Shown here one piece after another: positions 36,285-40,601 of a DNA stretch of 64,000 nt (its first letter is position 1; each line of letters opens with the position of its first letter). Source of the stretch: an uncultured Prevotellaceae bacterium. Lineage in GTDB: Bacteria; Bacteroidota; Bacteroidia; Bacteroidales; Muribaculaceae. The stretch is taken from the NCBI GenBank assembly GCA_946406035.1, contig CAMJJG010000002.1:1-64000 (forward strand), in the 5' to 3' direction. The notes beneath the pieces are model-generated. The model had not been told where the DNA came from. It worked only from the letters and a program-made list of their open reading frames with translations, and did no database searches. Both the position numbers and the translations under genes were made by a program.

Positions 36285-38117
36285 TCATTGTGCCCAATCG
36301 GTGCTTTTCTCGCCGTTGAGCGTGTCGAGCAACTTGCGGGCCTTGGAGGGTCCGATGAGCGCGGCAACCTCTTGTTCGCTGGCCTCGCGGATGCGTTTCA
36401 GCGACTTGAAGTGCTTGAGCAGCTGTGTGCGGGTCTTGGGGCCGATGCCGGGCACTTCGTCAAGTGCGCTGTGCACTTGGCTCTTGCTGCGCTGCTTGCG
36501 GTGGAAGGTGATAGCAAACCGGTGAGCCTCATCGCGCAGGCGCTGAATCACGTGCAGCGTCTCGCTGTTCTTGTCGATGTACAGTGGCACACTGTCGCCT
36601 GGGAAATAAACCTCGTTCAAGCGCTTGGCAATGCCCACAACGCTGATCTGGTCATGCAGGCCGATGCTGTTAAGCGCTTCGATAGCCGATGTCACCTGAC
36701 CCTTGCCGCCATCAACGATGAGTAGCTGAGGTAGCTCTTGCCCCTCCTGCACCAGGCGGCTATAGCGGCGAGTGATGACCTCGCGCATCGAGGCAAAATC
36801 ATCGGCGCCATCTACGGTCTTGATGTTAAAGTGGCGGTATTCTTTCTTGGCTGGCTTGGCGTTGCGGAACACGACACACGACGCCACGGGGCTTGAACCG
36901 CTGATGTTACTGTTGTCAAAACACTCGATGTGCCGCGGCAGCGCCGGCAGCCGCATGTCGCGCTGAATGGTTGTCAGCGTGCGTGTGGTGCGTTGCTCGG
37001 GATTGAGCTTCTCCATCATGCGCAGGCGGTCGGTGCGCTTCTGGGTGGCATTCTTGACGGCTATATCCAGCAGTTTTTTCTTGTCGCCTCGCTGGGGAAT
37101 GATAAAGGTCAGTCCCGTGAACTCTACATCGGGCGTGACGTTGACCATGACTTCGGTGACGTGGTCTCGGCGGTAGGTCTCGGCGAAGCGTTGATGCACC
37201 TCGGCAATGGCCATCGACATGATCTCGGCATCGCTCTCGTCTCGCGTTGACAGGCGGTATTCCAGTGTCAGGGACTGGACCACAGCCCCACCCCTCACGT
37301 GCATGAAGTTGACCCACGCGGCATCATCGTCGCGCAGCAGCCCGAACACGTCGATGTTGTGTATCGTCGGGCTGACGATTACCGAGCGCCGCCGCACGTG
37401 CTCTAGCAGCTTGTAGCGGCGCTTGACGGCCTCGGCCTCTTCAAACCGCAGCTCGCCTGCCAGTTGCTGCATCTGCTGCATGAGCAGGTCCATGAGCTGG
37501 TGGGTGTCGCCGTTGAGAATCTGGCGTATTTCGCCGATGTATTGACCGTATTGCTCTGGCGTCACCAGACCCTTGCAGCACCCTTCACAACGGTGGATGT
37601 GGTATTGCAGGCACAGGCGGTGCTTGTCGGCTTCGATTGTTTCACGTGAAACATTGAGCCGGCAGGTCCTTAACGGGTAAATCTGGCGTATGGTGTCGAT
37701 GAGCACTTTGGCGACCTCCGAGCGCGGGTATGGGCCGTAATACTTGTCGCCCTTGGCTCGTGCGTCTCGGGTAATGTACACGCGCGGGTACAGCTCGCCC
37801 GAGACGCATATCCAGGGATAGCTCTTGTCGTCCTTGAGCAGCACGTTGTAGCGGGGCTGGTACTCCTTGATGAGGGCGTTCTCGAGGTCGAGGGCTTCTT
37901 CCTCGGTATTGACCACGGTGTACTCGAGGTCATGGATGTTGCGCACCAGCAGGGTGGTCCTCACCGACGTGTGCTCGCGGTTGAAATAGGAATGGACGCG
38001 GCGCTTCAGGTTCTTGGCCTTACCGACGTAGATGATGGTCCCCTCCCGATTGCGGTAGCGGTACACGCCAGGCTCATCGGGGAGCAACGATAATTTGAGT
38101 TTCAGGTTGTCGTTCAT
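36285..38117 (-). CDS. uvrC: UvrABC system protein C
   Basis: A 610-aa excision nuclease subunit that cuts both sides of a DNA lesion. It has an N-terminal GIY-YIG domain (about 10-95: PGVYRYRNREGTIIYVGKAK, RRVHSYF), a UvrB-interacting UVR segment (near 205-240), an RNase H-like C-terminal nuclease (IECFDNSNISGSSPVASCVVF, LLIVDGGKGQVTSA) and terminal helix-hairpin-helix motifs (VPGIGPKTRTQLLKHF). I moved the start from the TTG in the track to ATG at 38117. Its coding sequence carries a perfect parS-like palindrome at 37638-37653 (codons for NVSRET). Confidence 0.97.
   Translation of the reverse strand: MNDNLKLKLSLLPDEPGVYRYRNREGTIIYVGKAKNLKRRVHSYFNREHTSVRTTLLVRNIHDLEYTVVNTEEEALDLENALIKEYQPRYNVLLKDDKSYPWICVSGELYPRVYITRDARAKGDKYYGPYPRSEVAKVLIDTIRQIYPLRTCRLNVSRETIEADKHRLCLQYHIHRCEGCCKGLVTPEQYGQYIGEIRQILNGDTHQLMDLLMQQMQQLAGELRFEEAEAVKRRYKLLEHVRRRSVIVSPTIHNIDVFGLLRDDDAAWVNFMHVRGGAVVQSLTLEYRLSTRDESDAEIMSMAIAEVHQRFAETYRRDHVTEVMVNVTPDVEFTGLTFIIPQRGDKKKLLDIAVKNATQKRTDRLRMMEKLNPEQRTTRTLTTIQRDMRLPALPRHIECFDNSNISGSSPVASCVVFRNAKPAKKEYRHFNIKTVDGADDFASMREVITRRYSRLVQEGQELPQLLIVDGGKGQVTSAIEALNSIGLHDQISVVGIAKRLNEVYFPGDSVPLYIDKNSETLHVIQRLRDEAHRFAITFHRKQRSKSQVHSALDEVPGIGPKTRTQLLKHFKSLKRIREASEQEVAALIGPSKARKLLDTLNGEKSTDWAQ
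37638..37653. promoter_or_regulatory. parS-like ParB binding site inside uvrC
   Basis: TGTTTCACGTGAAACA is a perfect 16-bp palindrome identical to the classical parS consensus TGTTNCACGTGAAACA, bound by the chromosome-partitioning protein ParB/Spo0J. A second site lies 1.07 kb away. Confidence 0.85.
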
Positions 38118-38146
38118 CACGTCGGGCTGCAATGGGGGTGGCTGAT

Positions 38147-38680
38147 TCAGAATGTGAACAGCGAGGTCACTTCAACGTCGGGCGGGAACACGTCGCGACC
38201 GTGCAGGTCGGCCAGGTCACAGATGAAGTTGATGTAAACCTTCTTGGGATTCATCGACTTCACCAGCTCATATGCCGCCAGCATCGTACCGCCAGTGGCG
38301 AGCAGGTCGTCATGGATGACAACGATGTCGTCGGGCGTGATGGCGTCCTTGTGGATCTCGATGGTGTCGGTGCCATATTCCTTGGTGTATGACTTCTGGA
38401 TGACTTCGGCTGGCAGCTTGCCAGGCTTGCGCAGGGGGACAAATCCTGCACCCAAGCGGGTGGCGAGGATGGCGCCGCCTATAAAGCCGCGTGCCTCGAT
38501 ACCCACAACGCGGGTAACGCCCTTGTCGCGGTACAGGTCGGCCATGGCGTCGGTCATGATCTGCAGGGCCTCGGGGTCCTTAAAAGCGGTGGTCAAATCC
38601 TTGAATTGAATGCCTGGAACAGGAAAATCAGGAATGTTACGCACCACGCTTTTTACTTTCTCTAATTGTTGCTTATTCAT
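38147..38680 (-). CDS. apt: Adenine phosphoribosyltransferase
   Basis: A 177-aa purine salvage enzyme converting adenine and PRPP to AMP. The PRPP-binding motif is DIVVIHDDLLATGGTM near residue 119. The N-terminal NIPDFPVPGIQFKDLTTAF and GIEARGFIGGAILATRLGAGFVPLRKPGKLP are standard Apt features. It lies between mnmG and uvrC in the same-strand run, 29 bp before uvrC. Confidence 0.97.
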   Translation of the reverse strand: MNKQQLEKVKSVVRNIPDFPVPGIQFKDLTTAFKDPEALQIMTDAMADLYRDKGVTRVVGIEARGFIGGAILATRLGAGFVPLRKPGKLPAEVIQKSYTKEYGTDTIEIHKDAITPDDIVVIHDDLLATGGTMLAAYELVKSMNPKKVYINFICDLADLHGRDVFPPDVEVTSLFTF

Positions 38681-38706
38681 TGTAAATCAATATATTATGT
38701 TGTATT

Positions 38707-38722
38707 TGTTCCACGTGAAACA
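38707..38722. promoter_or_regulatory. parS-like site between mnmG and apt
   Basis: TGTTCCACGTGAAACA matches TGTTNCACGTGAAACA at every defined position. It sits directly after the mnmG stop codon. Confidence 0.85.
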
Positions 38723-38723
38723 A

Positions 38724-40597
<1,874 letters not shown>

Positions 40598-40601
<4 letters not shown>

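Follow-up and report, generated by a model that had tools for sequence, protein, structure and literature searches.

A probable parS cluster at the mnmG-apt-uvrC locus of a Bacteroidales genome, with one site next to mnmG and a second within uvrC

Two 16-bp palindromes lying 1.07 kb apart on a contig of a Bacteroidales genome very probably constitute its chromosomal centromere, a parS cluster loaded by ParB in which the site beside mnmG is fixed and the site within uvrC has probably been rebuilt. The preliminary description of this DNA had named the pair as chromosome-partitioning sites, and that identity is supported here: the palindromes are unique in the draft genome, a cognate parAB operon encodes a ParB with parS-type residues, and conservation extends across the phylum, all of which points to a parS function.

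Results

Two exact palindromes in the mnmG-apt-uvrC segment

The window, meaning the whole stretch of 64,000 nucleotides that was analysed, forms the left-hand portion of a 113,632 bp contig, C2, in genome G000. The sites lie among a run of minus-strand genes comprising ybeY, mnmG, apt, uvrC and a NAD kinase-like gene (Table 1). Site 1 lies in the 43 bp that separate the stop of mnmG (38724) from the start of apt (38680). Site 2 occupies the (N)VSRET codons of uvrC, as was originally proposed, with codons numbered from the ATG at 38117; an alternative in-frame TTG start at 38132 is possible.

Table 1. Coordinates of the two putative parS sites and the genes around them (positions in the window).
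Feature	Coordinates	Strand	Description	Evidence
parS site 2 (putative)	37638..37653	.	perfect 16-bp palindrome within uvrC, codons 155-160 (xVSRET)	exact match
parS site 1 (putative)	38707..38722	.	16-mer 1 bp past the mnmG stop, in the gap before apt	exact match
mnmG (gidA)	38724..40601	-	conserved neighbour of site 1	TIGR00136, 787 bits, cut-off 524.85
apt	38147..38680	-	adenine phosphoribosyltransferase, between the two sites	NF002636 and TIGR01090 exceed cut-off
uvrC	36285..38117	-	excinuclease subunit C, host of site 2	TIGR00194, 545.5 bits, cut-off 285.45

A survey of chromosomal parS by Livny et al. in 2007 is said to give the consensus TGTTNCACGTGAAACA in Bacillus, Caulobacter and Pseudomonas. 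Both 16-mers fit this consensus with 0 mismatches, confirming the earlier reading of all defined positions. Only 8e-5 exact matches are predicted from base composition (64 kb, both strands), and a chance origin, already judged very unlikely, remains so.

The whole draft of G000 (2,232,915 bp, 69 contigs, 74.7% complete, such that more sites may escape a scan) was searched with the symmetric pattern TGTTNCACGTGNAACA. At 0-1 mismatch the uvrC and mnmG sites were the only two matches, and the even scatter around the genome that would have spoken against parS is not seen. The next-best matches are four in number, carry 2 mismatches each and are all on other contigs. A reversed control pattern was as frequent as the real pattern at ≤1 mismatch (2 vs 2), therefore it is exactness and position that bear weight here and not the number of near matches. 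One-mismatch counts alone were accordingly dropped as evidence for parS. Across the genus, copies are few and clustered, mostly 2-3 per genome, and 59/61 genomes contain a parS site.

A cognate parAB operon on the same contig

The location of parAB had been named as a check on the assignment, and parB is not absent. A single match to ParB_N was found in G000 (C2:94780-95058), 56 kb from the parS sites and on the same contig. The ORF is 311 aa long and a ParA-type ATPase gene lies immediately upstream, the operon spanning 94.3-95.9 kb of the contig. The protein passes TIGR00180, contains the GERRYRA motif of the nucleotide-binding domain, and aligns to the ParB structures 1vz0, 7bnk and 6t1f, as well as to Noc structures.

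This last likeness bears on another reading, in which the two palindromes serve nucleoid occlusion as Noc-binding (NBS) sites or belong to an unrelated CACGTG-binding regulator. The NCBIfam Noc model does give the top score for ParB, at 242 bits, which is below its cut-off of 315, and the residue equivalent to position 184 is K. The residues at 179 and 184, here F and K, are both variable among ParBs. As read from the alignment, the helix-turn-helix carries R at the equivalent of Caulobacter R173 and G at that of G201, residues for which absolute conservation in ParB is reported and which are replaced by Q and R in Noc (PMC7383237). The Noc-type residues were looked for at these two positions in ParB and were not found. 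Moreover, the sites show parS bases, and the sole ParB_N protein found in G000 is the parS-type one. One to three sites per genome, clustered close to the skew minimum, make a regulon unlikely. Taken together, a Noc or regulator site is extremely improbable, and the parS reading is preferred.

The site after mnmG is conserved across Bacteroidota

Eighty Bacteroidota mnmG loci from named genomes were selected by their MnmG protein, ignoring parS. They cover Bacteroidales, Chryseobacterium, another Flavobacteriales genome and Cytophagales; being the MnmG proteins nearest to the query, they sample deeper branches thinly. A site was found no more than 98 bp past the mnmG stop in 74/80 loci at ≤2 mismatches, in 73/80 at ≤1 mismatch and as an exact match in 53/80, with a median distance from the stop of ~9 bp. 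The 14-base core GTTNCACGTGNAAC has 120 exact matches in the 0.96 Mb of these loci, against 0 for the reversed core, with at least one in 75/80 loci and at least two in 40/80. A closer inspection of the six loci that have no site right after mnmG reveals that two have sites solely upstream of the gene (L080, L087) and one has sites 3.5-4.9 kb downstream, while three (L044, L058, L071) have none in the stretch examined around mnmG. Within the genus, site 1 is present in 88/88 loci that reach the end of mnmG. We read the mnmG-adjacent site as an old and fixed feature of the phylum.

In Chryseobacterium (L070, L081, L083, L085, L088), exact parS sequences are found on either side of mnmG, ~1.93 kb apart. 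Another observation concerns the G045 assembly, in which contigs C57, C66 and C142 (L283, L285, L304) carry three distinct mnmG-apt-uvrC loci, each with a parS pair. This suggests that the assembly is a mixed bin.

A palindrome within 98 bp of a stop codon could also terminate transcription or act as an RNA element in an mnmG-apt-uvrC operon. No run of T follows the mnmG-end palindrome in the window, however, and it is the sequence itself that is conserved and not pairing alone. The same sequence recurs elsewhere, both within coding DNA and, in Chryseobacterium and Cytophagales, on the upstream side of mnmG. We therefore give a terminator or RNA element an almost negligible probability and continue to treat site 1 as a putative parS.

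The site within uvrC recurs at different codons

Ninety uvrC loci of the genus were chosen by UvrC protein and not by motif. A site is present in 82/90 of these genes, at codon 155 in 65, codon 184 in 16 and codon 104 in one. The eight loci without a uvrC site include the closed genome G060, which suggests that a second site is favoured but not essential. The encoded peptides are xVSRET and close variants at codon 155, xVS[H/R]ET at codon 184 and CVSRET at codon 104. Site-less relatives encode NLTPEN, FVTPEH or CVTKEL at the three places (155, 184 and 104), and from such resident [LV]T-x-E peptides each site could arise by few changes.

Codon usage over the site is strongly constrained. In the codon-155 group, the site is written with GTT (65/65), TCA (65/65), CGT (64/64), GAA (63/63) and ACA (63/65), compared to a mean codon identity in the gene of 0.54 over 320 scored columns. 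Codon identity over the site is 0.95-0.99. The site window ranks 1st of 187 in uvrC for the codon-155 group and 1st of 376 for the codon-184 group. Grouping the loci by motif is partly circular, and a tree was therefore built without the site columns. One of its branches comprises 55 rows, and 55/55 have the codon-155 site, thus the codon result holds when loci are grouped by descent. In this quick tree, which has no bootstrap, the codon-184 group forms one clade (SH-aLRT 97) that the codon-104 row adjoins, and the four uvrC site states require four changes.

Outside the genus, the exact core occurs at uvrC codon 326 in another register, encoding PFHVE (L034:6512, L035:4837, L064:9687, L075:9630), and with one mismatch, encoding PFPVE, in L047 and L055. 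In Prevotella-type loci, the second site is often found in the apt-uvrC gap.

These data also bear on the idea that a conserved UvrC peptide, VSRET, yields the uvrC palindrome as a mere by-product that has no function at the DNA level, leaving the mnmG site as the only parS. The palindrome does lie entirely within the coding region, and the surrounding segment of UvrC is fairly conserved. The peptide is nevertheless dispensable, as relatives with NLTPEN-type residues at codon 155 demonstrate, and V, S, R, E and T are each written with practically a single codon in a gene of otherwise much lower codon identity. Furthermore, a VSRET-type peptide appears at codons 184 and 104, and a different one, FHVE, makes the core at 326. 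A peptide by-product is therefore very unlikely, and a second parS within uvrC is favoured. The simplest reading of these alignments is that a second parS ~0.6-1.7 kb from the first is probably kept by selection, with its exact place turning over. From the codon constraint and the distribution of sites, we infer in-frame rebuilding of the second site at uvrC codons that differ from lineage to lineage, or its placement in the apt-uvrC gap.

The sites lie on the origin side, far from dnaA

Neither the window nor contig C2 by itself gives a usable GC skew, the signal being too weak and the stretch too short to place an origin. For two closed relatives, Bacteroides fragilis Q1F2 and the congener G060, skew was sampled in stretches of 20 kb. 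In B. fragilis the skew minimum is at ~4.495 Mb and two parS-like sequences, at 4.587 and 4.597 Mb, lie 92-102 kb away, with parB at 0.179 Mb and dnaA at 3.644 Mb (0.85 Mb off). The skew of G060 (3.34 Mb) is weaker, with a minimum at ~1.65-1.67 Mb, parS at 1.738 Mb (~75 kb away) and parB at 1.373 Mb; a strand-corrected skew at four-fold sites was very noisy in this genome. In both relatives the sites thus fall in the origin-side part of the chromosome, in agreement with the preliminary description, which had called the segment origin-proximal and offered GC skew as a check.

The same description had also offered dnaA as a marker of the origin, and this proved misleading. The G060 dnaA starts at base 427, 1.66 Mb off, and is therefore almost opposite the origin, on the terminus side. 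With distances of this order in B. fragilis as well, dnaA is no origin marker here. In G000, dnaA sits on a different contig from the sites. As deposited, the G060 record begins at dnaA (C1:427-915, L139), with the skew minimum and parS ~1.66-1.74 Mb away (L235, L236, L169). Clusters of DnaA boxes (TTATCCACA, one mismatch) were sought in three genomes, near dnaA, near parS and near the skew minimum; none was convincing, and hence no oriC is named.

ScpA and the Smc hinge are not detected

No match to ScpA was found in seven Bacteroidota genomes (G000, G060, G024, G051, G061, which is B. fragilis, G062, which is Chryseobacterium, and G066), whilst 9/14 controls were positive, Caulobacter included. 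SMC_hinge had no match in six of these genomes. The hinge model misses Caulobacter too, so that the ScpA search is the stronger result and absence of the hinge alone is not relied upon. The usual link between ParB and Smc is therefore not to be assumed. These searches agree with a study reporting that two Bacteroidetes have no known condensin (PMC10197239). A diverged condensin in these Bacteroidota is possible.

Discussion

By analogy with established ParABS biology, ParB from the parAB operon would bind and load at each 16-mer as a CTP-dependent sliding clamp, spreading across the mnmG-apt-uvrC segment, while ParA would move the newly copied origin-side region. The second site may be retained because it gives ParB another place to load, roughly 0.6-1.7 kb from the first. 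A bolder proposal, possible but on balance doubtful, is that Bacteroidales need two close parS sites, a fixed anchor at mnmG and a mobile partner (at uvrC codon 104, 155, 184 or 326, or in the apt-uvrC gap), made anew time and again at the price of altered UvrC residues, the pair organising the origin without canonical Smc-ScpAB.

In practical terms, the mnmG stop provides a sequence address for finding the centromere, and approximately the origin, in draft Bacteroidota genomes, which often take dnaA as position 1. The uvrC sites offer a natural experiment on the gain and loss of centromere sites inside coding sequence. Moreover, the locus is a tractable ParABS case, as the phylum shows no detected match to the condensin that usually partners ParB.

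A search of the open literature returned nothing relevant linking parS with uvrC or mnmG. Within that literature, the phylum-wide mnmG-stop address and the apparent repeated rebuilding of parS in frame within uvrC are undescribed, although priority is uncertain. Separation of the origin from dnaA in Bacteroidetes is already published (PMC4755523), as is the use of parS clusters to mark the origin in two members of the phylum (PMC10197239).

Our verdict is that these sites are a genuine ParABS centromere of a known kind, ordinary and origin-side. They resemble chromosomal ParABS systems in having the same 16-mer, few and clustered copies, an origin-side position, a parAB operon and a ParB with parS-type residues. 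They differ in that parB is not beside the sites, the distance being 56 kb here and hundreds of kb in the closed relatives, that dnaA is up to half a chromosome from the sites in those relatives, and that neither the Smc hinge nor ScpA was detected. A close comparison is with a Hi-C study of Bacteroides caecimuris and Muribaculum intestinale (PMC10197239), which places the origin jointly from parS clusters and GC skew. As here, dnaA is unreliable as an origin marker in that account and no known condensin is present; a conserved mnmG address and uvrC sites are not described in the accessible part. Lastly, two reports give Flavobacteriaceae oriC as predicted beside mnmG by Ori-Finder, in one case away from dnaA (PMC11278836, PMC12843772), and their accessible portions do not raise parS. 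Those predictions fall at mnmG itself, whereas the Bacteroidales skew minima found here are 75-100 kb from mnmG.
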